Source: Pagrus major (lineage: Eukaryota; Chordata; Actinopteri; Spariformes; Sparidae). From it: a stretch of DNA of 64,000 nt. Shown here in pieces: positions 4,824-55,386 of the stretch. The stretch spans positions 8,102,847-8,166,846 of the forward strand of contig NC_133223.1 in the NCBI RefSeq assembly GCF_040436345.1, written 5' to 3'. Position 1 is the first letter of the stretch. Each line of letters starts with the position of its first letter. The notes under the pieces were generated by a model, which was not told the origin of the DNA, did no database searches, and saw nothing but the letters and a program-made list of their open reading frames with translations. The position numbers and the translations under genes are program-made.

Positions 4824-7800
4824 CTACCTCAAATAATCCCTCTCATTGCCATAATCCATTAAGGAGCCTGCCACATCAGCAAAGTCCTCCAGGACCAGGC
4901 TGGTGGAGTCCTCACCAGAGGGCAGCTCCGGGTCCGACGCCCAGGGGTGCTGGTAGTAGTCATGCTGGGGTGCCTGGGGTTCATCCATGGTGGTCTTTCT
5001 TGGTCCCTGCAGGAGGGGCTGAAGGGGCTGAGGCTGGGGTGGATCAGACCTCTGGTAGGCCGGTGCTGCATCTTCCACCTGCTGTTCAGTCTGCTGCTCC
5101 TTGGCAGTGCCGCCATCACTGCCACTGCCGCCCTCGCTGCCCTGCGAGGACGGGGCCAGCACATGGTAGAGGCTGGGAAGGCGAATGTCCAGCAGCACGC
5201 CACTCTTAATGTAGAGCTTGTTGTTGAGGTTGTAGAGCTTCTCAGCGATGTCGTAGCCCAGCATGACAGAGAAGAGACGGGCGATGTAGCGTTCCTTTGA
5301 TATTAGCATATAGAGGCGCCGACGACGCCATGAGATGTAGCGGGAGTCTTCCTCTGCTGTCAGGGTCACCTGGGAAGTATGAATGAATATCAATGTCTTA
5401 AAGGTACTAGGGCACACATGTATGCATTTGAGCATACAGATCAACAATATTTCCCTAATCGACAGCTGGTGACCTTAATGCTAAAGGAAATGTTCCTGCA
5501 ACTGCAGGACTGCTCTCTCATCAACATGGATGTAAACAATATAAACACATGTTTTATGGTTATAGTTATTTGTAACAAGAATACACAATGTGTTTTGGTG
5601 TGTAACACTTAATGTGAATGCCTGATTACAAGAACTCTAACTTTGTCAAGGGAAAATGTCAGAATATTTGTCATGTGTCTATAATGTCATGTCAAAGGAA
5701 TAGTTTGACATTTTGGGAAATTCACCTATTTGCTTTCTTGTCGAGGGTTAGATGAGAAGATCAATACCACTCATCCATCATTAACTAATTCGTTAACTAA
5801 ATCATTAACTAATTAAGACAGTAAAAATGCCAGATAAATATTAATGAAAATAATCATTAGTGGCAGCTTGACCTTTGTTTGTGCACCTCACTGATCCAAT
5901 ACCCAGCAATGCCTTCTTGTTTGCAAAGCCTGCATATCCACCATGACCTCCAGGCCTCGTTTCTACTTTAACCGAGCTAATCTTAAGCAACAGGATATGT
6001 GAAAGACAAGAGGACAGCTGCTTTCCCATGTTCAGCTTATCAGTCAGAAGCGGGGTCCGATAGAAGGCAACAAAAGACAACTTGATATCCACGTATGGTT
6101 TCTTGTTTCAAATCCGACAATGACAGCACATCAGGTTTAACATTTTACTGCCACACTTCGCACTGACTAAACTGCCAAAACCCATACCTGAAACTTTCCC
6201 TCCTCGTTTGGCCTGATAGACTCCCACTCCGGAGAGTCGAGGAACTGGTGGCGGTGGATGTAATGCAGGAACTGGCCCTCCAAAGACACGTTGATCCTAA
6301 AAGAGAAATAGAGAGTAAGATACAAGGTTAAAAAGAGAGACGAGGATTAAGATGTGATAATGAGAGCAGGGAGGGAGCTGGAGGTCACTTTGCCAGTGCC
6401 AGTCCAAGATCTTGGAGGTAAATATTAGCATGACTATCTCTGCGAGAGAAGCTGTGAACAGATTGAAGAGTTCCTTAAACAGTACGAGTTTTCTCCTGAG
6501 CCAGGATCCCCTCTGCACAAAGGAATCATAGTTTAAGACATTCCTCCCAGAGAAGGAAGCTTTATTTGAAAAGAATGACTTCCGCAGAGTGAGATGACCC
6601 AGCACACTAAACACTGAGCCGTCATTGGATTACATCAAAGGTTTCTGTTTTATCCTTATTTCAACTTGAGCTGAATGTTGTCATATCAGGGCTGCTTCGT
6701 GTCATTCACCTGACATCTACAGAAAGAAATACATAGAAGACTGCTGTTCTCAAAAAAATATTATGTTCCAGACTTTATTCTCACATTCTCTCAGCAGCTG
6801 CTTGTATAGTAGGATTCGCACCGGCAAAGGATATAACTGTTGATAAAACGCTGCTGCGCCGTCTCCTCAGACAGAGTGCCGCTGAGAAGAGTGGGGTGCT
6901 CTGAATAACCAAACAATAAAATCTGACAGTGCTCTTTATGAACGGTCCAGTTTGTGCAAGAGTGCACTCTGGCACTATTTATGAATGCACCCTTAGATTA
7001 GTTTCCCACGTCATGTGGCTGACAGCCCACAGTGCACATTTGACATTTTGACACTGCGTACAAAAATAATTTATCATATCATTTTCAAAAGACGGGGTTT
7101 TCATCATATAACAGGCAGCGACAATAAAGAAAATGTATTTTTGTTGCTTTAATAAGGCGCCCCTTGTGGCTGGTCCCCGTTATGGGCAGCTACTGGATAC
7201 AACAAACGACATTTAATTAAAAGTCTAAAGCAGGTCAGTAGTCTAAATTAAAGACTCAGGCGATCATAAATAGTCTACATGACACTGGTATTCTGTATTC
7301 AGATAAATGCTTGGTAGAGTATTTGTTCACTATCTTTATAGCGGTTTAAAACTAGGCTACTACAGGACTATATTTAGACTCTTCATAACAGTGGGTGTTA
7401 ATTAACAGCTATTTTCCTGCGTAGTGTAGTAGGTTTTAATTACCCTGTATGGCACGGGTAGGAGTGTCCACTGGAAAGCCCTGCGCTAAAAATGCCACTG
7501 CCCTGCTGATACGGTACTTTGTGGCACTAACACTATATGACCAGAAGTATGAGGACACCCCTGTCTTTTGGTTTCGGGCTGCTTTTCTCGTTTGGGACCC
7601 AAGGTCCTGTTTAAAGCAGCTATATGGAGCTTTCGTCTTGTGTTGAGTCTAGCGGCCCCTGTGGAGAATAAACATAATACCACTATATATGGATATATGG
7701 GAAATACACAATACTGCTGTATGAGTGTCCTCCTGTAGTAAGGAGCTGTCCGACTCCTCAATTCATCCTCAGCACTCCGCCATAAAAAAATCAACTGAAA

Positions 7801-9996
7801 CCAGACTTTGTTGTCAGAAATCAGTGTGAACATCACTAATGCTCTTGTGTCTGAATGGGAGCAAATCCCTGCAGCCAGATTCAAAATCTGATGAACAGTC
7901 TTCCGAGCAGAGTGGCGCAGATTAATGCCCATGGTTTTGGAACGAGATGTCCCAACTATCACGTGTCCACATGTCCACATACTTTTGGCCACGTAGTGCA
8001 GTCATGCCAAACAGGAGACTGTTGATTAATGAAAAATGCCTTAAGTAACATGTTTAGTAGTAACACACATAACAGTCATTCAGTCTTTAAATCTGAAACA
8101 AAAATGATGCACATAACATAACAAACACACCCAAAGAGCCAAAAATCAAGAACTGTGCAGAAAAAAATAATCATTATTATCTTTTTGTTTGTTTCTTGTC
8201 CCAGATTTGGCCTGTACACTGAGCTGGTATCAGCGTGGCCAACATTTAATTTAAGGTAAGAGGAGCACAGCGTCCACTCCTCTCTAAAGTACAAAGATAT
8301 CATTTGACCAGCTGGCAGTGTGCAGAGGCACGGCACACTGGTGAGTCACAGACAAAAATACACTGTTTACAACATTTCTCTTGTGTAGGCTCCAGGACTG
8401 TGAAATCTAATGCAGTTCCACTTTGAGGATGTTTGGATGAAGAGGATACATTTCCTGTGACGGTTCCACGCTGCCAACAGCATGAAAGAGACAGAAATAG
8501 GGACCCAGCTCCGCAGTTAAAATAGAAGATTTGTTTAAAACAATGGCTGCTAGTATTTCTATCACTAAAAGAAGAATTTAAACCAGTAAATACTACAATA
8601 GATACCAGTGTTACAAATTAGTGAACACCTTCTGATTAAGTCGCCTTCTGATTAACCTGCAACAACATGCTATCAGCTGTGTCCAGATGAAACGTCATAT
8701 ACTAGAGTTGATAAATATATACAATATATATTATTATCTTGATATGAGACTACATATGATCTTAGATTTTGGATATCGTTGTATCATGATATGGCGTAAG
8801 TGTTGTCTTTTCATGGTTTTAAAGGCTGTGTAACTGTAAAGTGATGTCATTTTCAGACTGTTCTACTTGTTCTAGCATTTGTCTTTAACCACTTATTAAT
8901 TATACTCACATTACTGATGATTATTGATCAAAAATGTCATTGTGTTAGTATTTTGTCAATGTGCCAGTAGTCATCATTGCAGTATTGTCTCAATATCAAT
9001 GTCAATGTATTTGGTCAAAAATATGGTGTCCTTTGATTTTGTTGCTCAGTCCTAGAAAATCACACAGTGGCGCCCACAAGAGGTCTCCTGACCCTGAGCA
9101 TTTTAGCATCTTTCAGCTCATTGTTTTGGTTTTACAGCCACAACTTAACTGTTTTGACATACTGCACTCTACCTGATGAGGGACAAAATTAGCGATTAGA
9201 TAGTGGACACAGTGACGGGCATTAAGAATAACTATAGTAACTGTACAGAAAAGCCAATCTACTCGCTGACAATCGTGTTTGCTCATGTAGGTCATATAGA
9301 AGCGTCAGTTCTAAACTGAGACTTTAATAGCCAGTTTAGAGTTCCTTGTAGTACGTTTAAGTATGTTTACATTGTGATATCACTACTTTTTCTCGAGTTT
9401 GTTGATTGTATATCGTTGGAGACAGTTAGTGGTGGTGGTTTGCATTATGTAGTACAGGTGTGTAGATGTGCACACACATGCCCAAACGCACACAGTCCCC
9501 ACCTCCCAGACAGCAGAAAGGAGAGCTGGTCGATGGGCGTCTTGCCCTCCACGGCGTACGTCTCTCCTGCTTTCAGCACCACCACCTTGTTCTCAAAGGC
9601 ACCTGAGATCTCCTTGAACACCTGGATGGGCACGCCCAGCGGCAGGTAGACCGCTTGGTAGAGGGAGGTCAGCTCATCACTGCTTATGCCCTCCTGGTGC
9701 AGCCGGTAAAGGAGGTGGCAGATCTGAGCCAAGCAGGCCAGCAGCAGAAGCAAGTTCCAGGTGAAGACGTCCAGGCCGCACATTGTCATCCAACCCCACA
9801 GGGTCAGGCACCCGAAGGCGGGTGCCAGGAAGCCAAAGATGAAGAGGCACCCGTAGGCCCCACTGCCTCCCATGTAGCCCAGGAACAGGATGGTGTTGCC
9901 CAAATGGTATATAGCCCCCTCTGTGTTATTAGTCCAGCCATCGCAGAGAGGGGCAAAGAACAAGCTGTCCACCAGAGTCACGTTCTCTGTACTCAT
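4824..9996 (-). CDS. popdc2: Popeye domain-containing protein 2 (cAMP-binding membrane protein)
   Basis: Three coding exons: 9996-9503, 6296-6188 and 5369-4824, all with GT-AG junctions in matching phase, giving 382 aa. POPDC proteins are plasma-membrane cAMP effectors of heart and skeletal muscle that bind TREK-1 channels and caveolin. The short extracellular N-terminus has two N-glycosylation sequons (N5-V-T, N23-N-T region). Hydrophobic segments follow at about residues 31-97, consistent with three membrane passes. The Popeye domain then carries both phosphate-binding signatures of the family, DSPEW at 185-189 and FQVTL at 200-204. The match to POPDC2 rather than BVES/POPDC3 is strongest in YMGGSGAYGC, TYAVEGKTPI and RLPSLYHVL. 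The tail after about residue 290 is acidic and low in complexity. The start has a good Kozak context (GACCATGA). The TAG stop lies inside a possible splice donor (AGGTAGAG), so an alternative C-terminus is possible. Confidence 0.93.
7531..7998. mobile_element. MITE with CACTATATG-type terminal inverted repeats
   Basis: The left end reads CACTATATGACCAGAAGTAT and the right end, reverse-complemented, reads CACTACGTGGCCAAAAGTAT; the match continues for about 28 bp. These ends resemble a very common teleost MITE family usually ascribed to Tc1/mariner-like elements. The 168-codon open frame inside (minus strand) has no transposase motif and is probably fortuitous. A second, single end of the same type lies near 54458-54478. 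Confidence 0.75.
8703..9055. mobile_element. Degenerate TAGGGCTGGGC-type DNA element
   Basis: Blocks such as GATTTTGGAT, ACTGATGATTATTGA, CATTGTGTTAGTATTTTGT and TTGATTTTGTTGC are shared in the same order with 45192-45893. The right end (TTGCTCAGTCCTA) is recognisable; the left end is decayed. It is a non-coding interspersed repeat common in fish genomes. Confidence 0.65.
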
Positions 9997-12470
9997 GGTC
10001 GAAACTCTTCAATTGACAAGCTGAAGAGAAGCTACTGATGCACAAAAGACCAAAAAAGACTTCTTATCTAACTGAACTTGGCGCTATTTTGGTACCATCA
10101 ACAGTTGCCACTAGAAGATTTGTTTGAATAAAAGCTTGATGAAAAATAAACAGTTAATACTGACCAAAAATGTCAGCAGTAAATGTTTGTTCCCTTGGCG
10201 TGCAGCGGAAAATTCTTCAATGTGAAGAAGTTCTCACGGCTCTATTTGTTATAGATACACAGCTGGAATGGGTTTCTTCTGTCATTATGCGTCCCTTCCT
10301 CTCTCCTCTGGCTTCTCCCACCGTCTTTCCCTCCCGAGTCTTCCTGCCGTTTCTCTTGCTGTGCTTTTCTGCCTATTTCTCTCAGCCACTGGCCTGCACT
10401 GTAGAGCCAACAGCTGGAAGAGAAGGGATAAGGGAGGAGGGGGGCGTTGATAGAGCCCTAGAAGGATAACCATGTTTGGAATTGAAACCCAAGGAGGAAA
10501 GAGTTGTGGACAGAAAGCAGGCCTGCTACTTAACATAACAGAAAGAGAGAGGGAGAGAGGCAGGAAACGGGAGGGAGGCGAGGGACTGTGACAAATATCT
10601 CTGAGAGTGTCACACACCAGAAAAAAAAATCTCAATCCCGAGCTACAACACAGTTCTTCCTTCACCCAAACTTCATAAGTTCAGTTTACTCTCAGGGGAG
10701 CCGCTCAGCTGGTGCATATTTAGAGACACTGAAATAAGTAGGATGACGGAGCAGGTCAGATTTCAGGTATAAACACCCACCACCACCACCTCACATATCC
10801 GACTGTCCTCTCAGCCACGATGACTCACAGCTCACAGGGAAAAGTCTGTCTCAGTTCATCAGAAATTTCTCTTCTCTGCTCTTTTTTTATTAGAACAAGA
10901 CAATAAACAGACAATGTAATAATGGAATACATACTGTCAAAATAAAAAAAACAAAGACATAAATGTATATTAAGCAAAATTATGGCCCTATCAGGAAGCA
11001 GAAGATTTACACTAATGAGGCACATGAGCAAAAGTAAAGATATCATGTTGAAATATTACTTGTACTTGTAATATTACTATTACTACTGGTCAAATAGTAG
11101 TTGGGTGAAATCTTAAAGTATCTGATGTACCCAAGTACCATTCTTAAGTAACTGTACTTAGTTAAATTGCATCAATATTAATATGAAGCAGTAATCTTCT
11201 GGGAACAACTGAAGTTGGCAGACTTAAAAAGGAGAAAAATACATTATATGAGCTGTGTGACAACTGAAAACAGAGACATGTTATTCTCTATAATGTCTTG
11301 CTATTATAAGTTCACATTAAGTTGATTAATTTACTGATCTGGCAGCATGAAATCATGAACTCATTTAAGAGCAGAAGGCAAGATGGTCTTTTAAATTTAC
11401 TATTTTTCTTTTAGGTTTCAGTTGCATGTTTTATTAGAAATGTTGTAGACATGAGAGTGACAGGTAAGTTATGTGAATTGGTGTTTTTTGTAAAGTCATT
11501 TGAAAACATGTTCTTAATTCTGATGTAATTGGTGTCTGGTAAACATTCTGGTGGAGCATGACAATATACTAAAATCTTCATCTTTACGAGTTTGATAACA
11601 ATTGTAACTTCAGGACATAGATGAACAGTTACATCTACTTGTTGCCAGCAGGTGTTCACATTAGGCTGGTCTTGTCACATAGGTGATGCCTTAGTCGACA
11701 CATTGAGAGTCCAACTTTATTTGGAAGTTACAGTAACCATAACAGCATTAAGTTTGTCAGACTACCAATTTAAATCTTGACTCAACCATCACCAGGTTCC
11801 ATGTAATCTGGTGAACAGAACTCTTCGACAACTAGCAATTAATGTCAACATTTTACCAAAAAAAAGTAGTAAGCTTTGCAGTAACCATTTAGCAATGTCA
11901 GGAGCAACAAAGGACTTACTACATACCAGTTTGACATCACTTTATAAGGATTATTGTAATCATTGAGCCCGTGCACCAACAGTTTAGGTGCAGATTTAGC
12001 CCATTAAACCATTGCATTTCCCAAAATCCAAAAGCAGTTAAAGTTATGCTAACATTAGAGTGTTTGTCAAGTTAGTTCACACTTGTCTCAACACAGCAAG
12101 GACTGGGTGAGGCAAATATGCACAGCCACAATGAACTTGTGTGGTTGAGAAAAATGCAAATATGGCACTTTTAAAAACCAAAAAAAGTTGGCATGAAAGA
12201 GGTGGACCAGTTCACACTTCTGCAGAGTTGCTGTAGCTTAGCATTGAATGTGTTGAACTAGATGTCCACTGCCAGGCACACTTCAGTATGAGTGACACAC
12301 TACAGGGGAAGAATGCAGATATGCCAAGTATTGACTTTGCAGGGGCAGGAGTTATTTTTAAGCCTAAGTGCATACCAGGGACAGCAACTGTGGCAAGCAG
12401 CCGTTCAGAGAATGGACCTTCAACACAGAACCTTAAGATGAACACAAATGCTGACAAACCAAGTTATTGC
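9997..12470. other. Intergenic region between popdc2 and cox17 (tail-to-head)
   Basis: This holds the presumed popdc2 promoter and 5' UTR (a possible UTR splice acceptor, CTTCTCTTCAG, sits just above the ATG, near 10020) and the region 3' of cox17. A fragment of the GTACTT-rich fish repeat lies at about 11045-11165. No other gene could be supported. Confidence 0.5.
11045..11165. repeat. GTACTT-rich interspersed fish repeat, fragment
   Basis: The block contains runs such as CAAGTACCA, TAAGTAACTGTACTTAGT and ACTTGTACTTG. Similar blocks occur at 18190-18375, 18980-19290, 19446-19560, 45350-45480, 50990-51120 and 56880-57000. Confidence 0.6.
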
Positions 12471-21035: not shown

Positions 21036-24000
21036 ATGGAGAAACTAAAAGGTCCCACCGCAGGATGCACCACGGCCACCTGTGGATGGAGAGCCCTGCT
21101 TCTCCCGCAGCTGAACAGACAGTCCCTGTATGTGTACGGCAGCGAGATGGCCGTGGAGAAGGAGTGCATGCGGCAGCTGGAGAGCGGAGTCTTTGTCATC
21201 CACCCGTTCAGCCTCATAAGGTATTCAATATGTTTGATAGATTCAGGCCAGTCCTGTACTGAGACACCACTTCTAGTATTAGACCGTTTCTTTAAAAGTT
21301 GTGTAGTTTCAGCAAGTTTTTGAAGGTGATGATTTGCCTCATTTTGCTCTGGGGATAAATAAAGTATTGTCTTATCTCTCATCTCCAAACCAATCAGTCA
21401 GTCAGTTGATTAATAGAAAGATAATCTGCAAATGTTTGGAATATCAATTAAGAAATAGCAAACATTTTCTAGCTCCAACTTCTTAACAGATTTGCTGTTT
21501 TTTTTTTCTCTTTTTCTGCAGTAAACCTAATATTTTTAGGTTTTGGGGTGTTATTTAGGGAGAAACAAGAGCTTGATGGCAGCACTTTGACTGTTAGTAA
21601 AATTGTTTTGGGCATTTCATAACATTTTCTGACATTCTATTGACTAAATAAGAAATCAGAAGATTAATTAATACTGAACCATATGCTGCAGCATTACTCC
21701 CTTTACTTGCATTGCTAATTAGAATTAAGCATTTTTAAGTCAACAATGCAATAATTGTACATTTTACAATAATTTACAATTGTGAAAACAAAGAGAAAAA
21801 TACAGTATAATAAGTCAAATGTAAAGAGTATGTAATATTAAAGGAAAAACAAGTCACCGGGAAGATTTTTAAGATGATACCAGAGAAAGAAAGAAAAAAG
21901 CAGGTGCTAAAAATGACTTCTTTAAGTAAAATGCTGACACAGATGGCTGGTTTTGCAGTATTGCTATTATTAGTTTTGTAAGGGAATCAAATGCATTGAA
22001 ACAGAGAGGGAATCAACAATCTGGATCAGAGAGCAGAGTTATTTGAGCCTGGCAATCGAACCCCAGCTGAGAAGATGTGCAGTTACAGTATCAGAGTATT
22101 TAGTGTGCATAAATCAGCATGCCTTACCGGCTGCAGCATGACTGTCTAATTAGTCCTTCTGGCAAACCAGTCGAGACTTTCCACTACAAACCTACATCAA
22201 GATCTAAGGCACACATATGTTTTGTGACCCTGTAGGAGTTACTACATCATGTGCATGATGGCCATCACATTTCTGAACCTGATTGGGATCCCCATGGAGA
22301 TAGCGTTTCTGGACGGCCACAGCGGACTGGCATGGGAAGGATTTAATGTGTTTTCAGACACGCTGTTCCTGATAGATGTGGCTCTGAATTTCCGAATGGG
22401 CATCATAACAGAGGACGGCGAGGTGAGAGTGGCTGTACTCTATTTTTTTCAGATACAGTTTGAAGGACCATAATCCCTGTGCAGACAAGCACACACAATC
22501 CATCTCTGTCCCATCTGTAATCTACTCAATACACGAAAGGCTAGATTAGCAATCCTCCCTCCCCCTGCTCCTGGACATGGGCAAAATTGGCACCTGCTGT
22601 TTGATTTTATAACAGGGATTACGATGTATTGGATGAATGAGAGGTCTAACATTTCCAATTAAGAGCAGACTATATCCTGTTTGTTTTCATCTGCTCATGC
22701 TTTGCGACTTCTATCTCGCCAATCACAAATGGCCCATCTGTGATGTTCTCCCTGTCTGTGATGTTTACTCTGGGCTGCACAAACATCTGGTTTCGCCAGA
22801 TTTATTCTCACTCGGTTTCTGCCTCTTTGAAATATTAATGTCCGAGGTTTAGCAACAATTCAACAACGCTGTCAGATTAATGTTGATTTTTTTTGAGCAC
22901 ACTGCTAACCTCATCTGACACCACTGTCTTCCTTAACTTTGGAAAAACTCCCAAAACATTGGTTCAGTTCAAGTGTTAAATTAGACATGTGATGGTGGCA
23001 CGTGCTGTGCAGCATCTTCATCCATCTGCTCAATCTGCTGCTCTGCTCTCTTTCGCAGGAAGCTATTCTGGATATCAAGCGGATCCGAGTCAGTTACCTG
23101 AGGACATGGTTCATACCGGACGTTATAGCTGCTTTCCCAATCGGCTACATTCTGCTGTTTGCGGTAATAATGAACAGACTGTTGAAGCAGCAAACAGCCA
23201 GTGTGCTGCAGTACATGTCAAAACAGTTATGCACTTGGATTCACTTTATTTCTTCATGGTTTATTATTAGAAAGCACTCAGAGCAGTAAGACGGTGTTTC
23301 TACAGAGAGTAACTCCTGAGGAAAAGGCAGTACAATAAACTCATCAAATGTTCTGTAACATAAATTTAGTGATAATGAAATTAGATAAATGAAAAAAAAG
23401 AAAATCAAACAAAATTCATACCATTGATAATTGAGCCTCTGTAATTTATCATCTCAGGACTTACAATACCACAACGATGACAACCCCTCCAAGACCAACA
23501 AGATGATGAGAATACTGATGTTTGTGCGGATCCTCAGCTTGATCAGACTCGCTCGAGTGTCCAGACTGGTCAGGTTCTTCAACGAGGTGGAGAAAGTAAG
23601 TCTAAACACTAGACAGTCTTCAAAGCTCCCCTTTGAAATTCAATCGACTTTTCTTCTGCCTGCAGATACCTTACCAGACCTGGTTCCGATGACTAATCTG
23701 ACTTTGAACACCTACAATGTCATTTGTTAAACAAGAGCTGGTACTATCGACAATGCATTTGTTTCATTTTCTGCCTTTTATCAGAGTTTGCCTTTTTCTA
23801 ATCACATGTACTGTATATTGTGCTCAAACAACAGAGGTATGGCAAAATATAAAGGTATAGGACACCTCATACCGGTTATGATGATGTTCATGGTAATCTC
23901 ATAATGAAACACAATATGTCTCGAAACAAATCTCAATATTGCATAATGTATGTGGTGTGTAACTCCAAGCCTTTGACCAGCTACTAGTGGCTGAAACAAA

Positions 24001-27000
24001 TAGTTTCTGGTGTATGTATCGGTGAAGTTGATGCTCTCACTTTGGACAATTGAGAGAAATGTTTTTTATCCTCACTGATTTATTGATTTAAGACATAAAC
24101 CTGTTTACTGAACTAATCCTCTTTGTCTATAATCCATAAGGCCAGAGAGAGTTCCTTACATCGTTTCCTGTCTTTGGCGAAAGGTTAAGCCTCCCCCAAA
24201 GTTAATCGTTGCTAGCTTGTCCATCACAGTTCAGTGGCGGGTCATTCTTGGTCTTCCAGGTTTTCTTTTCCCTTGAGTCCATCTCGGCACAATCCGCCTC
24301 CATTTCAATCACATGGTCCAGCCATCGCAGTTGTCTTGGCCTTAATTCAGTAATGATGTTCATACTTTTGGTTTTAATTGACAATTCCAAGTTTGTGATT
24401 GTGTTAAGCCAGAAGGCATCTATTGCTGTATATGACAGCCTGGAACTGTACACTAGGATCGACATTCCACACGTTGGGAAACACACCCTTGACTCTCGCC
24501 AATCTTGCATTGATGTCCTTTTGAGTCCGTATTTCCTTGCTGCCAGAATAAGTTCTCCACAAGTGCCTCAACATTTATTAAAACTGGTTCTGAAAGTGTG
24601 GTATGAATATACAGCACCAGTGTTTAGGAGATGCTGATGTTGCAATTAGTTTACTTGGATGCAATTAATCGGTTTACTTAATTTTATTTAAAGCACCATT
24701 ATGTCGAAATTGGCATTTTGTGTGAGTGCAACACCACTGTGCTAAATACAAATCCCAGCTCTGTAACAATTTGTCAGACTTAATGTAGGTGCTAACTACA
24801 GACAAAACTCATTACGTCATAACAATGTTATGTCTTAGAAACTTGTATGTTGAAGTAAACATGAGACAACATTCACCCTGTTACAGGACACTGTACCATC
24901 AACATGATTCTGAAGTTGTTATTTTAAGGTACAAAGTTACATAATGTTGCTTTAAAGGTCCCATCTTATAGAAGGTTAGATTTACATGTCCTTTTTTGAT
25001 TACAAAACAGGTCCAGGTGCTAGATAAATATTGTGAAAGCTCAGTCATTTCAGAGAAATGCACACAGCACGTATGCAAAAACCGTGCCTTTAAACAACCC
25101 ATCAGGACTTCTGTAAGGTTGCGATGTCACAACTATACAGTCACCGCCCACAGCCCCCAGCACAGCCCTGTTTGCAGAAATATTGGCAGAGCTGAAACAA
25201 AGTGGGCAGTGAGAGCTGACCAATCAGAGCCGACTGGGCTGCTTGGGAGGGGGGCCTTAAAGAGACAGGCACTAAAACAGGGTATTCAGACAGGATGTAT
25301 AGAGGTGCTGCAGCAATGGACAGTATAACAAAAATAATGTGTTTTTTGAACATTAAAGCATGTAAACATTTTCTAGTAGAAAATAAATCACCCATCATAG
25401 TTTACAGACCAGTGTCCCACTTCAACTCTGACCAACTGTACTTACTTACTGTACTACTGTCTGTGTAATCAGGGGTCATTTCCATCATTTCAGGCACTCT
25501 CATTTTCTGATTTCCCTGCAAATGAAGTGGTTTAGATAATTTGGCTACAGTGTTGGCTTGTAACAGCCTGTCTGATAATTTGCTCATGTTTCTTGCCCCA
25601 TCCTACTCTGTTGTACTGATGTTGTTGTGTTCCCAGATCTCAGCATTTAATTTGGTGAAAACAATATTATCATCACTGATAGAAATGATGACCAAAACTA
25701 TGAAATAAGATCCAGGTCGTAATAAACCAGGATAATAATTTAAGTACTTTTTTTACAGCAAGTTTAAGCTGTGAAAAATATGTGTAACCTTGTCCAAATT
25801 CTGTTATAATTTAGTGGCCATGGCTGATAACATGGCTGTTGTATTGTTTTAAGGTTGTTCTTGTGTGAACAACCTTAAAAAAATCAACCGTTACTGAAGT
25901 AAATATTTACCTATTGTCATGAACAAGTGCTGTTAATGTACCTGTGTGCTGGTGAGTGAGTGAAATGTATTTTTACGATATGATCCTAAGCCAGGTTAAA
26001 TCCAGTATGCTGCTTTAATACACGTTTTCTTGTCATGTCTTCCTGGCAGGTGTCAAACGCAAACTTGGAGGTGGTCCGTCTGTTCTTCCGCATCTTGTCT
26101 CTGTTCATGATGATTTTCCTGCTGTGTCACTGGAACGGCTGCATCCAGTACTTTGTTCCTATGCTGGAGGAGTTTCCAACTGACTGCTGGGTCCGGAAAG
26201 AAAACCTGATGGTGAAACTTATTTCTCAAAACTTTACACTCGAATTCAAGACGGATCAACATTTATATAAATCATTTTACAAGCATCAGTCGTGTAGTAT
26301 CACTTATAATGTAAACATCTTTCCAGAATGCCACAGTGATCGTGAAGTACTCTTGGGGAGTTTTCCGAGCGCTCTCTCAGATGATTGCCCTCTCGTATGG
26401 CTCCATGGACGCACCAACAAGTGAGAACTATGGATTTTCTTTTTCCATTACTAAAAAAAGCACAGGTGTATCAAATTCTCTCGCAGATATAAATACCTGA
26501 CATTTCACACCAAGCAAGCTCATGTGTCGGTGTCTTGTTCTCCAGATTATGTTGAAATGTGGATTGTCATGGTCAGCATGGTGTCCGGGTGTCTGATGTA
26601 CACAGTCCTTGTGGCCAACGCTACAACCATGATCGCCAACATCGACCCAGCGGCCAAGGAGTACAAGAGCAAGGTCATTATTACTGACACTTTGATTCGT
26701 CAGAAAATACAGCTCATTAGAGATCAAGTTACTTTACTCAGTGGAACAGAAAATAAGTCATGAGCTGACGCTGGTTATACAAGCAAGATCTATATTATTT
26801 TAACATATTTCAATTTTGTAACCCATCAGGTATTTTCTGATTACAATTTAGTCAACGGGGCCAATGTTTCAGTGTGGCCGGTGGATATCACAATATATAA
26901 TACATATTATATCTATCTTATATATGTGCTGGTCATTGTTTATAGTTCGACTATGAGACTTGGTGTTTTAGGTCCCAACGACATTTCGGCTGATCTCTAT

Positions 27001-30000
27001 AAACAGATATCTGCATATGAATTTTAATTGTGTCAACTTATGTCTAATGTTTTATCTTTCCAGATAGTCTAGTGGCTGCAACTTCTGTGGTAGTAACATA
27101 ACTTGCTTGCTGTGAATGCAGATAAAATAAAATAAAAAATAATAAGAAGAAAAATTGTTGTCAGACGATAGGCGATGGGTTCTGAGATCATATTTCGGCC
27201 TGTGCGTTTTCTCTCCACGTGGACTGTTAACCTGCATGCAACTCAAGCCCGGACTACAGAAAGCTTCTGATACCAATATGTTGCCCTTCGCCTGGAGATT
27301 CTGCATTCATATGCAGATATCTTTTTATAGAAATTAGGCATAATTAAGTTAACAAGGGAAAACAATTAGATTTTATTGCTTATTCATTTGCTAAGTTCTT
27401 ATTAATATATTTCATTGTTTATTTATTCAAACAATAATTTCCCATGTAGTCTTTCGTAAGAAATGGAGAGCCAGGTTGGAAAGCACATGGCAAAAACTCC
27501 TACACAGTTTCCACTACAATGATAAATAAGTTGTTGCATGACCTGATTATAAAATTGAGTACAAGTAACATTCATTTCAACTGTAGCTCTTATTCTTGAA
27601 CATTTTACCTTTGGCCTCAGGTAGAGGCTGTGGTACACATGCCTATCAATCTTCTAGGACTCATTAATCCTAATTTTAAATATCATCATACAAATATTCC
27701 CTTCACACTGAGCTTTTACAGTTACACAGTTGTAGAACCATGCAATTATGATTCATGATTAAACATGCAGCTTGTGTATTATGTGATGAGAGGTGGATCC
27801 TGAAAACATTGTGACTCTCCACAGATGAGCCGTTTGGAGCACTACATGGCCTTCATGAAGCTCCCACCAGAGCTGCAGCTCCGTATCAGCAACTACTACC
27901 AGGCTCGCTACGGAGGGAAGTGGTTTCAAGAGAAGGACGTCATGGACACAGTGTCGTCAGCGCTTAAAGAGGTACAGCTGTGGTTCATCTGAGAGGTTCT
28001 GCTAAGCTTAACTTGTTAAATTGAAGTCTTTGTTCATTCTACTGATCTTTTGAGGCAACATGTTATATAATAATCTTATATTTCCTGATTTTCTACTCTT
28101 ATATTTCCAACATAACATTTGTAACATGATATTTTTTTATTTATTTTTCAGCAAATCCTGATGGTGATGTGTAGCCGACTGCTAAGAAACGTGCCGGTGT
28201 TTCAGAACAGAGACGAGAACTTTATCAACGCCGTCCTCCTCAAGCTGGAGTACGAGGTTTTCCTGGAGGGAGATGCCATCGTCCGACAGAACGTCCCTGG
28301 TGACCGCATGTTCTTCATTGACCATGGACAGGTCCTCATGGAGACCGATTCCTACGAGAGGGAACTATGTGATGGAGACTTTTTTGGAGGTGGGTTGGAT
28401 TCACATTAGTGACTATCAGGAACATCATTAAGGGATTTGAAAAGTGATATCTAAACAACAAGAGTTGGGAATTTGAAGTGTGAGAAGAGAAGGCCCAGTC
28501 GGCTGTAAAGCAGATTGTTGCCTCTAGAAAAATACTAACAAACTAAGATGAAATCCAGTTCTTTATCTCATATTCAGTCACTTTAAGAAAATTCTCAGTA
28601 ACATCTGTATTGCCTGAAGCAAAGTACAATAAGAACACAACAATGCTGTTTAAGTATTACATAATGTACCGAATGCACAGACACAATCAAAAGTGCTACA
28701 GGCTAATTTGTCCGAACGCTTCCGTTGTATTTTTAAAATGCATTTAGGTACATTATGACTAATGACATTTTTTAAGGAGCAGGTACAATAAATAGTCTGG
28801 GCCTGTAAATTTGAATTTTACCTCAAAAAAGTCTTACTTTACTTACTTACTTTCTTTCTAGGTTTTTCTGCTTTCAGTCCCATCTTATATCCTTCCTCAG
28901 CAGAGGAACTAAGCCAGAGCATTTCAGACAGGGGGGCAGTACTGTATGAAATAAACTAACCCTAACCCTTTGTGAAAACTAAAGCATGTAAACCTATACT
29001 ACTACTATTAGTAAACCAAAATAACATTATGAACCTGAAAATGACCATATGTCTCTTTTAAACAATGGAAAAATACACACAAGGTCAGTCCACTCAAATT
29101 ACAAAAAAGAAACATATTTTCTCCCTTAATTAACATCTCTTTCCAGAAATAGTGTCCCAATGATCCATAGAACTGTGAATTGCTTTCAGCTTTCGTAAAA
29201 CCAATCAAACCTCTTCAACAGCCCTGCTATCTAAAGGTAATTCAAATGAGTAATCCACGCTGAAAACTATTTCAGATAGGTGTCAACAAAGGTTGAAAAT
29301 AACAGGGCTAAAGGACAGCATTGTATGCTTCCTTCTCTCTTTAGGAGATCAGGCCAAACTCCTTTTAAAAACGTGTTAATATTCTGTCTTATGAAAACAT
29401 ATTACAGTTATGATTTAGACTTCTCTGTAAATGGTTTTCACTGGAACTGCCTTAGACTAGCTGACAGCTTGTTCAGTGGATTATTATTAGAGTAGCAGGG
29501 AGCAGTTTCCAGGGAAAGATGTTGTTGTTGTTATTTTTGGTGCTGTGAGCCCGACAAACACTGGAAAAAAAGGAAAAATGTCTGCATTTAATTAGTTTAT
29601 ATTTTAATCGACTGATAATATTACTACTGTGAAATCTAGGTAGCTGATCAACTCTGGTGGTTTTCTGATTTACATTTTAGGTTTAGTGTGAAAGTTTCTA
29701 TGCTTGCTCCAGGAACTACATGGTGCTGCATCCCACAGGGCCTGTTTAGATCACCACTCCCGACCCATGTATCTTAATACAAGAAGAGGTCAAACTAAAT
29801 GAATCTATCTTCTCCAATTTGGAGGATTTATTTAATTCTCAGGCTTTAAGTGGGAACGGGTCCTAATCTTTTTGGCAGCAAACCTAGCAGCGTTTAGAGC
29901 TAAGCAGGCTTCCCGAAACAACTCAGCTCAGTCTGGTTATTTAATTTAGGATTAATTGTCAGATCTCATCCCTGTTATTTGGATTTACTCACTCATTAAC

Positions 30001-30206
30001 CATGCTTTGTGGTTCCCTCTGTGTGTACTACAGAGACATGCATGCTAACCAAAGGCAAACATCTGGCCACAGTGAAGGCACTGACTGACTGCCAGTGCTT
30101 CTCTCTGTCCTGGGACGACTTTCAGGACGTGCTGGAGGGCTTCCCAGATGTCAAGAAGGACTTAGAAAAAATGATGCAGCTCAACTCTGACAGTGGACTC
30201 GTGTAA
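21036..30206 (+). CDS. hcnl1: HCN-like channel, HCNL1-type (candidate voltage-sensor proton channel)
   Basis: Ten exons: 21036-21220, 22236-22422, 23059-23163, 23458-23595, 26050-26211, 26327-26420, 26546-26673, 27825-27971, 28152-28389, 30034-30206; 518 aa, all phases agree. Residues 27-62 resemble the HCN domain before S1. S1-S3 span roughly 63-155 and S4 177-198. A sequon (N260-A-T) lies before the pore helix as in HCN channels. The filter region is A-L-S-Y-G (280-284); S6 leads into a C-linker ([10 protein letters not shown]) and CNBD (about 400-500). S4 has R177, then M180 where HCN has arginine, then R183, R189, R192, R195, R198. A methionine at this S4 position defines zebrafish HCNL1 (M169 there), in which protons pass the voltage sensor and the central pore is silent (established for that family). 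In the cAMP pocket E462 is kept, but HCN2 R591 and T592 correspond to H471 and L472. The short N-terminus fits HCNL1 better than HCN1-4. The start has a strong Kozak (ACCATGG). Confidence 0.88.
24190..24510 (-). mobile_element. Degenerate LINE fragment in channel intron 4
   Basis: On the minus strand the conceptual protein contains [16 protein letters not shown], which resembles the RRLRWLGHVxRM block near the end of many non-LTR retrotransposon polyproteins. The frame is broken on both sides. It is a dead fragment. Confidence 0.65.
25847..25880. repeat. Perfect 14-bp hairpin in channel intron 4
   Basis: Arms TTTTAAGGTTGTTC (25847-25860) and its exact complement (25867-25880) are separated by a 6-nt loop. 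Function unknown. Confidence 0.85.
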
Positions 30207-32835: not shown

Positions 32836-35800
32836 TCATCCAAACACACACACGGTGCCCGAGGCCAGCCGGTGTTTGTACTCGTAGAGGTAGTAAGAGG
32901 CTGGAGGGAAGTTGCACTTCATCTCCATCCTGCCCGGCACCACGTGGACAGCCACACCGGATCCCAGCCCTTCCTGCAGCTTCTTCAGCATGCGTGAGGC
33001 CAGGTAACGCCGCGCCCTGCCCGGGTCTTCCTCAATGGAGGCATACACCTCAGGTGGGGGGTTGGGGATCTTCCACTCCAGGTCCACGATGAGCTGGTGG
33101 ATGCGACTCTTGTCCAGCGAAGTCGGTGTGTCACGGTAGCACGCCACCACATGGGGAATCGGTGGTTCAGACGCCACAGAAAGGAAATTGTTGAGCGGCT
33201 GTTGTTCTGGCACTTCTTCCTTGTCTTCCTTATTTGGCTTTTCCTCCTGTGGCTCCTCCTCCTCCTTCTCATCATCCATGGGTCCCACAGCAGGGTGGAG
33301 CATCACCGCCCAGCGCAGCCAATCATAGTTCTTCTCCAGGGTCTTCAGGATGTTCGTCGCTGCCTCCTCAGGAGGTGCACGGTCTTGCACGGCCTGGTAG
33401 AGCTGCTGCCGTACATCTTCCTCCGCCTGCTGCAGAAAGTAGCTTAAGCAGCGGCCTCCTGTGTTCTTCATCTTCCTGTAGAGGGTACCCATGCGGTCAG
33501 ACCAGGTCTTCATCAGTAGAGCCTGGTCTCTGCCTGTCAGAGAAGCCTGCGTGAAGAGGCACAGCAGACCGGTACCCAGGACAAAGTTAACCTGTGCAGA
33601 GTTAGAGGGGGAGAAGAAGAAAGCATGAGCAGGTCAAAAGCAAACACCTGTTGTATAGACCTTTTTCATGTAAGACATTTTGAAATATAGGAGGGAAAGC
33701 ACAGGAGTATTATATAACAATAATGAGGGCTGAACTGAGCCATTATTAATTTTATTTATACTAATCAAAGTTAGTTAGGGATATGAGGATATTTTAGTGT
33801 TTCACTTGATTGTTTGTTCTGTGACTTATATGAATTTTTATTTTGTGTTTTGTGAATATTTTTGGTCCCCAAAAATAATGCGACACATTTCATTTGACTT
33901 GTATTGCATATCCATGCACACACATATATGCACCTATATCCCAATAACCCTAACTAATTCTAAGTAGTGTATCCCAACTGTGCTTCACCTGCTTTGACAG
34001 GTCAAATTGTTTGCTGTGAAAAAGGTCTTTTTTGTGTAAAGATGCAGAATGGTACTAGGCTCCTGAGTTCCCCTTAAATGAATTACTTTCTTCGCAAAGT
34101 GTGACTCCACCCCTGCTCAGATTATAAAATATTATAATTAGGAATCCTGCGTATTTAAAGAACATTTTCCTCACAAAAAATAAAACAGCATAAACTGCAA
34201 TTTATCTTCTTTTTTTTCGCTAGAAAGCAGCTTAAATCGAACCCTATGGCAGGCCAACTTTGGCTGCACTGTCGTCAGCCCTGCTCTGAAATATTACATA
34301 ACCAGGATTGGCCTCTAGTTGTCTTACCCCCAGGATGTCTAACCAAAGAAAACTGGTGCAGACATACTAATGAACAGTCATACAGTACATAGTTAGACAG
34401 CACTGGGCAGGTGCTGTCTGGTTTAAAACTTGTTTAAGCCTGCGTGAGTAGCAGATGGGATGTTTTATCACATGAGTGCATTTTTAAATAGTGTCGGGTA
34501 AAATGAAAGCGGGGCTTCACAACTTTGTAGACTGTCTGCTCTAAAGAAGTCATTTATTTTAATAAACAGTTTAAGTAATCAGAAACCCTGTCATGTGCCT
34601 TTCTGACCAAGTAGTCTGAGAACAGGAGCCTCAGGTTCCATCAGTACAGTGACATTGGGGTTTCTACAACATCAGAAGAACAACAGAAAATGTGCAAGAA
34701 AACTAAAAAGCTTTATTTCAGATGGCCTTTTTGCATGCAACACAACCGAGTCATTGTGTTACTCTTTAAAAGTTGTGTTGCACGACTGTGTGAAATTTGA
34801 AATCAAATCGATTCCTGTGTACAAAGGGTTTTTGATGCGTTGTTGTTCTGCTTCAGTACGTAGCCAATGAAACCTATCAGTCAGACAACGTTTAGTCTCT
34901 GGGGCAACAGCTAGTGTATTTGGGTTTCTAGTGTAGCAGCAGATAAGACTTCCTCATCTGTGGACCGGTCATTGTTTACGGTCTGATTAGCAAGTTGAGA
35001 CACCAGAATTGAGTTGGAGAGGCTAATGTATATGAACGATATCTGTATATGAATGCAGATATATTTTTCAAAAGCTATTAAAAAGGTAAATGGTTGTTAG
35101 GTGATAGCCGATTGGACACTCTGTAGGACTGTTTACCTGAGCCCGTCCTCATCAGACAACCAAGCAGCGTCACAACCAATGATTACAAGCCATATTAATG
35201 TGTGCTGTTAGGTGGCGACCTCTAGTAGCTGTAGTATTATTACAGCTTCAGAGGAGGAAGTGAGGAGAGGGGGTCAAAACAGTGAAAACTCAGTATAAGG
35301 GTTAGGGTTAGGAGTTCCACTCAGGAGGCCGCTGTTCATGTCCAGTATGAAACCAGAAGTCAATGGTGAGTTCTTTTAACTTACTAACGAACTGAAGGAA
35401 TGTTACATATATATCATAAGTTACGTAGTTAATGCAAGTACGTTTGTAACAGAAGTTAAATAAGTAATATAGTGATTTTAACCCAAACCAAATGTTTTTT
35501 CAAAACCTAACCAAACTGCGACTGCATGATGAAGGTCTGGTACACTGCAAAAGCCATGTTGTTTGTGGAACGGTGATATATGTTGTTTTATGAGTCACTG
35601 ACAATCGACTATTCAGTTGTGCAGGTCTGACGATTTGTCGGTTTACCTGCATGGAACCAAAGCCCGTTTAAATCTGATTGGTCGATACTACTTGGACTAC
35701 AAATGGAAACCAGAACACTACCAATATTAAAATCTTGTTCCTTGACAGCTGATTCTGCATTCATACATCTGTGGCATTCCTCTGCTGTCTCCACTCTGAT

Positions 35801-44360: not shown

Positions 44361-47300
44361 ATGGACCCAACGTCACGGTTCTTTACCAAGCTGAGAAAGC
44401 TGGCGGTGACTCTAGAGTCAGAAACGGCCCAGCTCCAGCACACGTTTGACAACAGAAACAAAGACGACGGTGACAGCGGTGAGTGACGCACTGACAAGCC
44501 AGCCTGATGTTGGGACACTGTTCAGCATGTATATAATATGTGGACAGTGTGTCCATGTGTCAGTACGAGTTTCTTCTTGTTGCAGAAGCGACAGCGAGAG
44601 GGATGAGAGCATTACACGAGCTGAGCTCTGAAGTCGGGACCCTAAAGGTACGGTGATGTCATGACCTGTGCACCAAACTCTGTTCATTAAACTGATACTT
44701 TAAGGGAGCTTGGTTTAACGGCATAAACAAACGTGACACATTTTGGTTACCACATTCCCAACAGCCTCATGGGTCAAATGCACAAAAGTGTTGTCAAAGT
44801 GTGGTGAAGTGTTTCTACATGTTTTATAACCGCCCGCTAGCATGTTGGATGTGACAGTTGGTCAGTTAAAGCTGACATTTAATTTCAAAACACTGGTTCT
44901 CCACCAACCTGCAATCTAACACTATAACCTTTAACAATATAGTTACATAGTGAAGCTTTTTAATGAATGCTGCCAGAGTCTAACCAACGCATTCATTATT
45001 ATTGTTATTATTAGTAGCAGTAGTAGTTGTTCTTGTAGTACTTTTTAGGTAAATACATTGTTTGTGGCAGTAAAATAAATAGTACAGATTGTTTGTAAAG
45101 AATAAATAATTTCCTCATTAAGCACCATAAAGAATATCAGCTTTTAAAATGTATTATGCAGCCTTTTTAGTGAAAAATATTATCACATACATAGGGCTGG
45201 GCAATATATACGATATATATATAGAGACTATATAACGTCTTGGATTTTGGATGTCATTATATTATGATATGTCATATGTAGGTGTCGACAATACGACTTT
45301 TTCAGAGCCGATAACGATTTTTAGAAATCATGGAGACTGAAAACGGATATTTGGGATCAAGTACTGTTATTAAGTACAGCTTTCAGTTACTTTACTTGGG
45401 TATTTCCTTTTTCTGCTGCTTTATATTTCCTCTTCCTTTCTGATTTCATACATTTAGTTACTAGTTACTTTGCAGATTCAGATTACTCAGTGTTTATAGG
45501 CTATGAATTGTGGCATGTTACCAATCAGATCAGAGTGTTGTGAGAGGGACATTGTGTGAGAGCATGCTGAATCAGAGCCAAAGTAGCACATTTTTAAATT
45601 AGTTTATTTTATCAGCAGTCTGACGGAAAAATGCTGAATCTCGGCCCAATAATTGTCCGGGGCCGATAATCGTCATAAGTGTTCCTGCATTTGAAGGCTG
45701 CATTACAGTAAATGATGTCATTTTCTGAACGTACCAGACTGTTCTAATATTTGTCTTTACCCACTTAGTCATTATATCCACATTACTGATGATTATTGAC
45801 AAAAAGCCTCATTGTGTTAGTATTTTGTGAAAGTACCAATAGACATCCCTACAGTATTTGGTCAAAAATATTTGATTTTGTTGCCCAGTCCTAACATTTA
45901 TGAAGTGCTTTTGAGAAGATTTCAAAATCGCAATGTATATATCGTGTATCACAATATGACCTAAAAGTATTGTGATTTTTTTTAAGGCCATACCCTACAC
46001 ATGCACTTTAAATCTGGGAGCCTGTTAACTTTTGAAAGGAAGGCAATTATCATCTCTGGCTTGTCCTCGTACAGGGGCAGTTACAGGAACAGTTGACTCA
46101 GCAGAAAGCACGGGATAATGAGGTGAGCAGCTTCATTAAGGCTTGTAGAGTGATGCAGCAGAAGGTCACTCAGGACATCCAAGCAATGAGGGAACTTTGT
46201 GAAAAATATGGTTACCAACCTCCCCGAGACACCCAGACACAAACCAGTAAGTAATGAAATAAGCTGTAACACACAGTCAACCTATTTGTGAAAGTTAAAG
46301 CTATGTTTATGAACAGTATACTATGTACCTTTAGTAGTTAAGATTAATTGTCAGCTGTTCAAAACTATAAGCTAAAGGATACAGGATTCATAAAAAAATG
46401 TTTTTATGTCTTTTATTGTGACTCACCTACACAGGGGCCACAGGTCAGCAGTCAGATGCTGGAAATGAGGAAGCAGATGAGTCAGCAGGAGAAGAAGGGG
46501 AAAGCCAGGAGGAGGCTGGAGATGATCCCTCTTCATCGTCTCCCAAAGCGGGACCACCACCCGTCACTGACGTTCTGCGAACCCCACAGCTCTCTGACTT
46601 CGGCCTGTCTGAGATGCATCTGAAGAGAGCTATGGCTGGGGCAGAGTGGTGCTCTGAAGTGCCCCCTATGCCGGAGATGAGGCTCCCTCCCCCATCACTC
46701 AACATGCCTGCATCGCCACCCATGCCCATAACTCCTAAATGTGCCCTGCGGATGGATGAGGAGGAGGTGCAGACACCCCAGATGCATGACTTTGGCATCT
46801 CAGAGCACACTATGTGTCTGCTCAACGACTTCACTATGGATCTGTTACAGAAGAAAATTGACAAGCCCCCAAGGTAGAGCATAATGTGCTTTACATAATC
46901 CATACAGTATATGACATTTATTGACCTCTACTGGCAACATGCAGCAGTACTGTTAGAGATCTTTCAAGAGTCTATTCTTATTATGTGTATTCTTCTTAAA
47001 CAGACCATCACAAGACATACCTGTACCACCAGTGAACTCACTAATGGAGAGTTTGCAGGCTAAAGGTATGGAACTGTTACAGCTCATAAAACTTTCCAGG
47101 TTTTACTTTCATCTTGTTTTTCTTCTGCATTTCCAAACTGCTCCACAACTTGGGCTTGGTGTCATTTGTAATTTTGTATACTCGTGCCAGCTCAATACCT
47201 GTGTTTTGGTACCAGAACAACAACTTTATTACATGACATTGAGAAATTAGTTAACAAGACTACAAACGGGACCAGACATTTGATACCAGGTTTTGATTCT

Positions 47301-50300
47301 CACTTTTTTTTTTTTTTTTTTTTTTTACCAGGCCTTGTCACAGCAATCTTTTCCCCATTTTATCTCAATGCTCTACTTTTCTACAGTAAACATTGACTGT
47401 TTGTAATTAGGCTGGACCAGATGTGTAACATTACATTGCAAAAAAAAAAACAAAGATTTTTTTTTTTAAAAGATACCTTGGTTTTTTATATATGAGAAAT
47501 AAATATTAAATGTACTAAAAACATGACATGAGTATTACTGAGGATGTCACAGCTGCTTTTAGAGGATTTTCAGAAAACCTGCACTTCAAGAAAAAAACAG
47601 ACATAATACCACTAATAAATGTACATAAATGCCACCATCCTCCTTGCAAAAAATATGTCATTCTATCCCTTTATATCACATTGTTCAGACAACATGGAGT
47701 CTCCAGAGCTGCCTGTGTTTTGCACCCCGGGGCTTAAAATCAAAAAGACAAACGGTCACTGCTCGCCACCCACACAAGGGAATGGTGACCCAGAACCCTC
47801 CACGAGCAACCAGCCTACCACCCCAGATGTTCCAGTTTTTCAAACCCCATACGTGAACCGAATGGTCAGCACCAAAAAGGTACAATGAATGAATGTGTGC
47901 ACATGGAACATTTATTTGATGATATAACTTCTCTCTTTCTTACTTGTGGGTCTTAATAGTCAAATGTTCCCCCTGGGTGATCAATAAGAATGATCTTATC
48001 TTAAAGGTGGTTTTAAGCTATACTAATGTGATAAAAATATATTTTTTTATTTACTTATCCAGACTTGCTGATCAGAGAAACTTTTAGCTCAGAGTTTGTG
48101 CCTTTCTGCATGTCTTCACAGAGTGCTCAGCAGCCTGACCCCATCAACATACAAACAGATGACGATAGCCAAACTTTCAAACTTCAGATGTCTCCTCGTA
48201 ACAGATCAATCAACTCCAAGCGCTCCTGGGAATACAATGTGCCAGAGATGTCCATCTCGGGTGAGGAGGACCAGATGCCAGAGATGCCAAAGCTGGAGTT
48301 TGCTTTGGACAATTATTTACAAAATGTAAGACAAAAATTCACCACAGTTTTATCTGAAGGTTGTTGTAATTTCTAAAGTAAAGTATGACAAATCATTGTG
48401 TGGTTAAATGTGGTTTACAGACCAATCAGAATACACTAGAGGAATATAAAGTCAGGAAATGGCAAAATAAGTAATAAATAACGACTTTTGACTCCTGTAC
48501 AATGATATAAAGACTTCATATTTAAAGATAAACTTCTTTATTAACTGTTTGCCTGCAGTCTTACGTGTCTTATATTCACTCCAGAAAAGTGCCAAAATGC
48601 TGAAGAAGACCAGTGAGCATGAAAAGGTGACCAAGGAGCCTACTGTTAATAGTCTGGAGCTGGACGGACCAACCCAGGAGTTCAGTTTGGGAACACCTCG
48701 CCTCAGGATGGACTTCGGAGACCCCAGCACACCAGAAATGCCAGAACTCAGCTCAGTTACACAGGACATCTGTAAAGTGTGTACCTCGAGTTTTTAGATT
48801 GATTTACATGCCTTCAAGCTACTTCTGGTTTTATCTCATGACCAAAAAGAAAAACAACTTTGACATATTATCCAAAACCAACTTTACAATATGTCAAATT
48901 CAACTTTCCTGCCACACTCCTTCTGTGTTTTTATGATTTTTCTTTTCTTTTGTAGCTTGTGTCTCAGGCTCAGTTGAAGAGGACTGCCATGGCCATTGTG
49001 CACCCAAATGTCAAGGCTGACAAATATAAAAGCAGGTAAAGTATCTCAGAAAACCACTTATTTCTAACCAGGGATTGATCCATTTTAAAGAAACATTCGG
49101 TATAGGAGGCAAAACCTTCGCTAAAGACATTTTAATTGGAATCTCCCCACTAAAGTTGCAAGATTCAAGGTAGTTGTCACATGCTCAGAGATACAAAAAG
49201 TAAAACCTGCAGTGAATTGAAGCAGGTTCTCAGTTACTGTGCAGGAATATCAAAGTGATCATAAATAGAATAAAATATATATAAAATGCAAGCTGAAACT
49301 ATACACCCAAGGCTTCAAGATCAGTTGATCTTTTTTGGATGTATCTGCTGACCTGCAGGCTCCTAAAGTCCACCACTGTTACCTTTGCTGACATTCAGGG
49401 TCAGGATCTTTAACGCGCAGCCCTGTGCCAGATTGTCTAACTAGTTCTGGTAAGCCTGTTCATTGTTGGTGGTGATCAGGCCTCCTACCACTGTGTCGTC
49501 TGTGAATTTGAGGATAGAGGTGGAGATAAGGGTTAATGAGCCGAAAGGGATGGCTCCTTGTCTGAACCACCTGCGGCCCAGTGGTGAGGAAGTTGTGGAC
49601 CCAGTTGCACAATGGGATGTTCAGTTCTCAGATCCTCGTCTTTGTGGACGTACCTTCGTGCAGATCAGACAAGATCAGACTGCTACTGAGTCGAAGAAAA
49701 TAATACTAATTATGACATTCAGGGACTTAGTATCATTTATATTTATTTTTTTTTTTTTTACATTTGGGAATTTTTAGAGGGTTAGTTTTGTCAATCCTGT
49801 CTGTTTCAAATAAGAATGGATGTTTATTTCTTTCCACAAACTGTCTTTATTTGTGCTGTCCTAAAAATCATACATGCCTTTATTTTATTTTTTTTGTTAT
49901 TGTTTTTTTTTTTTTTTTAAGATTTTAATTGTGACATGTTCTATCCCATCCAGTCCTCTTGCCAAAGCCGTGAGTGTGTCTGTGGTGTCGGAGAGTGAGT
50001 TCCAGAGTTTACCAAGCTACCTGAGGCAGATGACTCTGCCCAACCTCAACCAGACAATCCACAACATCAACAAATTCATAGCAGAGTGGCCAGGTCAGTG
50101 CTACAGTTCACTTATGATTAAAGTTAATTAATAAGTATATTGTCTAAATATATTGTTGTTGAAAGTCAGAGGATTCATTAAAAAAAAACAATGCATTACA
50201 TTGCATACATAATGTTTATCTTGTGCTTTGGATACATCAGAATGATAAGTCGGATGTCAGAGTGAGAAATTTTCTGAGACACAAATGACCATTAATCTTG

Positions 50301-54839: not shown

Positions 54840-55374
54840 TAATAATGTAATTGTACAGCGGCAAAAATGATAAAACTATATTTAAAAAAAAAAAAAAAAA
54901 AAAAACTTCCTTCTTGCACAGCATTTAAAGTTGTGTTGGTGCTTTAGATGATGAGCAGAATCACTGCTGTCTGCTGTGAATGAAAGCCACATGATGTGTA
55001 TCTGTTCTTTCCTCGTTAGCTCCACTCAGGTCCAGCACTGTCATCAGGTAACCAGGGTAACGTCAGCGAGTTGTAGCATCTAGCTAATCATCTCCGTTAT
55101 GCTAGCCGAACCGCTGTGCTAATGTTTTCTGCGGCTGCGACCTCTTCAGTTCCTCTGTACAGACTCCTGAAACCAAACATGCTTCACATTTTAATGGTTT
55201 TCACGATATCTGCGTTGGTTAACTTTAATTCCACACCGTTTGCTCTGATGCAGCACCGCGTGAGTTAGGATCGCATTTCAGTGACGTCGCCCTAAAATGA
55301 TCCAATTAGATCGCTGGATGCAAACGACCGTTGGTGACGCTACAGCAGTTTTTTTTCTCCCACCCACTGGTCGT

Positions 55375-55386
55375 CCACCATTTTGG
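55375..55386 (+). promoter_or_regulatory. YY1-like site upstream of the THAP gene ATG
   Basis: CCACCATTTTGG matches the YY1 core (CCATNTTG). It lies 59 bp upstream of the ATG, a position typical for YY1 near transcription starts. Confidence 0.4.

Follow-up and report, generated by a model that had tools for sequence, protein, structure and literature searches.

What kind of channel is encoded by a Pagrus major gene whose voltage sensor carries a methionine at a position held by a gating arginine in HCN channels, and does it belong with the proton-conducting channel HCNL1 of zebrafish? The gene lies on the forward strand of a 64,000-nucleotide stretch of the genome (RefSeq assembly GCF_040436345.1, contig NC_133223.1, positions 8,102,847 to 8,166,846), which was analysed as a whole and is called the window here. 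Zebrafish HCNL1 was reportedly first described by Wobig et al. in 2020. The literature describes a channel in which hyperpolarisation lets protons pass through the voltage sensor (PMC11700363, PMC13095418) and whose central pore does not conduct (PMC11700363, PMC10651576, PMC13095418, PMC9603624). Its filter region is altered and the essential arginine of the CNBD is absent, according to PMC10651576. Three residues named in PMC11700363 and PMC13095418 serve as landmarks: K163 (outer end of S4), M169 and C240. Of these, M169 is said to be evolutionarily conserved (PMC11700363, PMC10651576, PMC13095418 and PMC9603624), and its mutation to Arg suppresses the proton current (PMC13095418). The zebrafish literature further describes expression in sperm, acidification after spawning and a connection with the K+ channel CNGK.

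Results

Gene structure and domain architecture

The exon at 23458-23595 (+) yields a stop-free translation of 46 residues, is preceded by AG and followed by GT, and aligns without gaps to the S4 segment of HCN channels, in agreement with the original prediction that it encodes S4. Splicing of ten exons between 21036 and 30206 (+) results in a protein of 518 residues (Table 1). All nine introns are GT-AG and no in-frame stops occur; both the length of the product and the numbering of the methionine as residue 180 are identical to those predicted. Pfam matches to Ion_trans_N, Ion_trans and cNMP_binding place an HCN domain, a six-transmembrane channel and a CNBD in one subunit, and the alignment to the HCN1 and HCN4 chains of the PDB, which we take to be human, spans residues 18-507.

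Position and phase agree with introns of HCN genes from the same genome (contigs C16, C17 and C8) for six introns, namely those in codon 62, after residues 205, 259, 333 and 382, and in codon 462. For the intron in codon 62 the match in these three genes was read at the acceptor side only, and for the one after residue 259 it is based on the C17 sequence and on the exon edges of genome matches. Relative to the HCN genes, the channel gene has three additional introns, located after residues 124 and 159 and in codon 291. The HCN gene on C17 (locus L037, about 2861-3190) has an additional intron of its own that splits the S1-S4 exon, a region matched without interruption in six other HCN genes.

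The structure of the gene also bears on the explanation that a pseudogene or an assembly error lies behind the M180 codon. ATG and the Arg codon AGG differ by one base, and the ATG was read in one assembly. Against such an origin stand the open frame of 518 residues with its intact splice sites as well as the changes in the pore, the CNBD and the S4-S5 linker described below, which fit HCNL1 independently of the M180 codon. We therefore consider this explanation extremely unlikely.

Open frames elsewhere in the window are included in Table 1; those at 46422-48797 may resemble SKA3.

Table 1. Exons of the channel gene, the M180 codon and neighbouring open frames, in window coordinates
Feature	Position	Strand	Content
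Exon 1	21036..21220	+	N-terminus and HCN domain; residues 1-62, codon 62 split; begins at first ATG of open frame; Pfam Ion_trans_N
Exon 2	22236..22422	+	S1-S2; residues 62-124; includes E83 (Gly in 9/9 HCN rows) and H90
Exon 3	23059..23163	+	S3; residues 125-159; includes G153 (Asp in 9/9 HCN rows)
Exon 4	23458..23595	+	S3-S4 loop, S4, start of S4-S5 linker; residues 160-205
Codon M180 (ATG)	23518..23520	+	Aligned with the HCN S4 Arg and with M169 of zebrafish HCNL1 (PMC13095418)
Exon 5	26050..26211	+	Remainder of S4-S5 linker, S5, turret; residues 206-259; includes C251
Exon 6	26327..26420	+	Pore helix and selectivity filter; residues 260-291, codon 291 split; 10 residues replace CIGYGxQAP
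Exon 7	26546..26673	+	S6; residues 291-333
Exon 8	27825..27971	+	C-linker; residues 334-382
Exon 9	28152..28389	+	End of C-linker and CNBD; residues 383-462, codon 462 split; Pfam cNMP_binding
Exon 10	30034..30206	+	CNBD phosphate cassette KHLAT (residues 470-474, versus RRTAS) through stop codon TAA
Open frame	4824..5474	-	Popeye domain (POPDC1-3); opposite strand, upstream of channel gene
Open frame	9445..10008	-	Popeye domain (POPDC1-3); opposite strand, upstream of channel gene
Open frame	32836..33633	-	265 codons; gene-like sequence, no Pfam match
Open frames	46422..48797	+	Several frames; no Pfam match above cut-off in the four pieces scanned
Open frame	55310..55633	+	THAP domain
Open frame	58461..59909	+	482 codons, 2.8 kb past the THAP frame; HTH_Tnp_4 and DDE_Tnp_4, transposase-like

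Ancestry within the HCN family

In a phmmer search against PDB sequences, HCN4, HCN1 and HCN3 ranked at the top, with a best E value of 7.9e-135 for HCN4; the best CNG chain reached 2.2e-36 and the best KCNH chain 6.2e-27, all values referring to the best 60 of 160 matches. With such a distance from HCN4, KCNH (EAG/ERG) was rejected as the closest match. No chain named HCNL1 occurred among these best 60 of 160 PDB matches, and a scan of viral contigs returned no relative.

The genome (786 Mb, 25 contigs, with the window on contig C9) was also searched with the window protein, and seven other HCN genes were found, located on C4, C8, C11, C12, C16, C17 and C21. All seven share the filter sequence CIGYG; the CNBD cassette reads RRTAS in six of them and RRTAT in the gene on C16. 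Because several of its exons were matched, the C17 locus was considered as a second HCNL-type gene, a candidate rejected on the grounds that its CIGYG, RRTAS and S4 Arg are those of an ordinary HCN channel. The search for a second copy scored the best 83 of 89 candidates, and another search the best 95 of 96. Among the weaker matches, inspected with a possible CNGK partner in mind, those on C1, C9 (at 3.1 Mb), C10 and C18 look CNG-like: the filters read TIGETP or TVGDTP on C1, C9 (3.1 Mb) and C18, and the pieces read on C10, from the S4-S5 region and the CNBD, are CNG-like. By eye, the matches on C9 at 19.0 Mb, C15 and C22 look KCNH-like.

The seven genes and the PDB chains of HCN1 and HCN4 form a set of nine HCN rows, to which the window protein is 39.5-41.7% identical, nearly equally for all of them, whereas the nine share 76-96% identity with one another. 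Judged from sequence, an even identity of about 40% fits a separate line, and it fits fast change as well. A tree was calculated from the window row and the nine HCN rows, with three CNG sequences from this genome (filters TIGETP) serving as outgroup and KCNH being left out. It separates the HCN rows and the window protein from the CNG rows with a support of 100/100, and CNG membership was rejected on this basis. With 2.81 changes per column, the branch leading to the window protein is very long. In the approximately unbiased (AU) test, neither a clade of the nine HCN rows alone (p 0.58) nor a position of the window protein beside C16 (p 0.46) was rejected, and the nine HCN rows were grouped by themselves in 18% of 200 bootstrap trees. 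Hence, the topology shows an HCN-type ancestry without dating the split. The expectation that a tree would set the protein apart from CNG channels thus held, while with respect to HCN1-4 the AU test accommodates a position outside them as well as one beside C16.

A placement beside C16 is what a fast-evolving, functionally ordinary HCN1-4 duplicate would lead one to expect, that is, a Na/K-conducting channel in which the methionine is one neutral change among many. The gap between the identities of the window protein to the nine HCN rows and those among the rows themselves speaks against such a duplicate. Further evidence on this point comes from S4 and from the pore.

A methionine in the S4 arginine series

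In the gapless S4 alignment, M180 lies opposite an Arg of both the HCN1 and the HCN4 PDB chain (6gyn for HCN4). By hand count from the alignment, the HCN1 residue is R258 in the chain numbering of 9bc6 and 5u6o. The seven further HCN genes detected in this genome all read RIVRF here, with Arg in the M180 column, and the predicted series R177-M180-R183, in which Met takes the place of an S4 arginine, is thereby confirmed. Of eight S4 basic positions that are invariant in the nine HCN rows, seven stay basic in the window protein and R180 alone is lost. R177, R183, R189, R192, R195 and R198 are present, with R183 replacing a Lys, and K174 replaces an Arg. The window protein lacks both the unbroken S4 Arg series and the CIGYG filter that every one of the nine HCN rows has.

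Across the alignment, the window protein differs from the HCN rows at 148 of 299 invariant columns. A single altered column is hence not improbable by chance, and R180M, not being rare in itself, is compatible with an ordinary HCN duplicate. At the sequence level, M180 appears notable as the sole charge loss among the eight S4 basic positions and by its location at a published functional site.

K174, M180 and C251 are separated by 6 and 71 residues, the same spacings as between K163, M169 and C240 of zebrafish HCNL1 (offset 11), which puts M169, M180 and R258 in one column. In HCN1 the cysteine of the DCWV motif likewise follows R258 by 71 residues; the spacings alone therefore neither separate HCNL1 from HCN nor show kinship. 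According to PMC13095418, the HCN1 equivalent of M169 is R248, a number that belongs to a Tyr in 9bc6/5u6o; the mismatch with R258 may stem from another species, another numbering or a slip.

The histidines follow the zebrafish pattern less closely. At offset 11, the zebrafish His sites 43, 50, 78 and 82 land on Val, Ile, Gly and Leu, and none of the Zn-site histidines H50, H78 and H82 finds a match when the Met residues are aligned. Given a difference of five residues in loop length (124 residues from H56 to M180 versus 119 from H50 to M169), H56 can correspond to H50; no His precedes H56 in the window protein, and H43 is left without a counterpart. In the S1-S2 linker a single His, H90, is present, compared with two in zebrafish HCNL1.

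Selectivity filter, CNBD and S4-S5 linker

In the selectivity filter, CIGYG is changed to ALSYG plus one inserted residue; C280, I281 and G282 are lost and YG is retained. In the CNBD cassette, R470K and R471H eliminate the arginine pair, and we take the R470/R471 column to be the essential CNBD arginine meant for HCNL1.

The S4-S5 linker, which in HCN channels connects the movement of the sensor to the gate, is altered at 16 of its 17 HCN-invariant residues (residues 199-217, encoded by 23575-23595 and 26050-26085; Fisher p 8.6e-5). With the exception of a loop containing two invariant positions, it is the most altered of ten regions, the other nine giving Fisher p values from 0.12 to 0.83 for changed HCN-invariant columns. 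The value of 8.6e-5 is post hoc, as the region was picked after viewing the changed residues, and it survives a factor of ten for the ten regions.

The retained YG is a feature that a Na/K-conducting HCN duplicate would share. However, a filter lacking C280, I281 and G282 and containing an extra residue, the lost arginine pair of the CNBD and the erased S4-S5 segment are difficult to reconcile with ordinary HCN function, and we regard such a duplicate as very unlikely.

Besides S4, the sensor is changed at the outer end of S1, where an invariant Gly is substituted (G83E) and an acid is gained, and in S3, where an invariant Asp is substituted (D153G) and an acid is lost. The invariant sensor acids D103, D109, E121, D129 and D145 are retained, and D66 is replaced by Ile. 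Since the pore and coupling features look lost and D153G and G83E may bear on permeation, the protein might also be conceived as a voltage sensor devoid of any conductance, with a dead pore and a proton-impermeable sensor, acting as a silent or modulatory subunit. Yet zebrafish HCNL1, with Met in the same column, conducts protons (PMC11700363 and PMC13095418), and S4 has otherwise retained its charges, a pattern suggestive of selection for voltage sensing. To a wholly non-conducting sensor we accordingly assign little probability.

Discussion

Judged by its sequence and by analogy with the zebrafish channel, the window gene is most probably an HCNL1 orthologue of a teleost; its central pore would be silent, and hyperpolarisation would open a path for protons through the voltage sensor. 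The case for orthology rests on published landmarks of the zebrafish channel. At the sequence level there is good support for an HCNL1-type channel: the Met lies in the M169 column, in line with the original prediction, and the altered filter and the lost CNBD Arg, on which that prediction did not draw, fit as well. Proton conduction would follow by analogy with the family.

Like zebrafish HCNL1, the window protein combines a VSD, a pore domain and a CNBD in one HCN-like subunit and has Met in the shared S4 column. The altered filter and the loss of the CNBD arginine add to this likeness, with the zebrafish channel known in these respects from its published description. The two proteins differ in that the loops of the window protein would be about five residues longer and in the number of histidines in the S1-S2 linker. 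With HCN1-4 it has in common the full architecture including the HCN domain, two-thirds of its intron positions and phases and roughly 40% identity; what sets it apart are the S4 exchange of Arg for Met, ALSYG with its insertion, KHLAT, the changes in the linker and the three extra introns. Hv1, which is not known to have a CNBD, is comparable by analogy only, as a channel with a proton path via the voltage sensor. In contrast to the HCN-type window protein, Hv1 lacks a pore domain and is activated by depolarisation (PMC11700363).

On the basis of the HCNL1-type assignment, we propose the following sequence of events. On hyperpolarisation S4 would move inward, as we infer from the seven of eight basic positions that remain. 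Uncharged M180 would then be situated at the narrow part of the voltage sensor, with no arginine plug there, and protons could pass inward by way of all four sensors. The central pore would stay silent, no longer being opened by S4 via a normal linker, and cyclic nucleotides would have no regulatory role. By analogy with zebrafish, sperm would be acidified upon hyperpolarisation after spawning. A more far-reaching version, which we put forward tentatively and consider rather doubtful on present sequence grounds, is that the proton path of HCNL channels is set by several sensor changes and a decoupled pore and not by the Met alone; R180M, joined by G83E, D153G and the erased linker, may thus have produced a four-fold, sensor-only proton channel with a vestigial pore.

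The mechanism as such is not new, as the Met and its role have already been published for zebrafish; what is extended is a known family. If the orthology holds, HCNL1 is carried to another fish genome, and the window protein offers a natural comparison for finding the sensor residues that are needed for proton flow besides the Met. In addition, the almost complete remodelling of the S4-S5 linker in a type of channel whose pore is silent would be a testable sign that coupling between pore and sensor is no longer needed.
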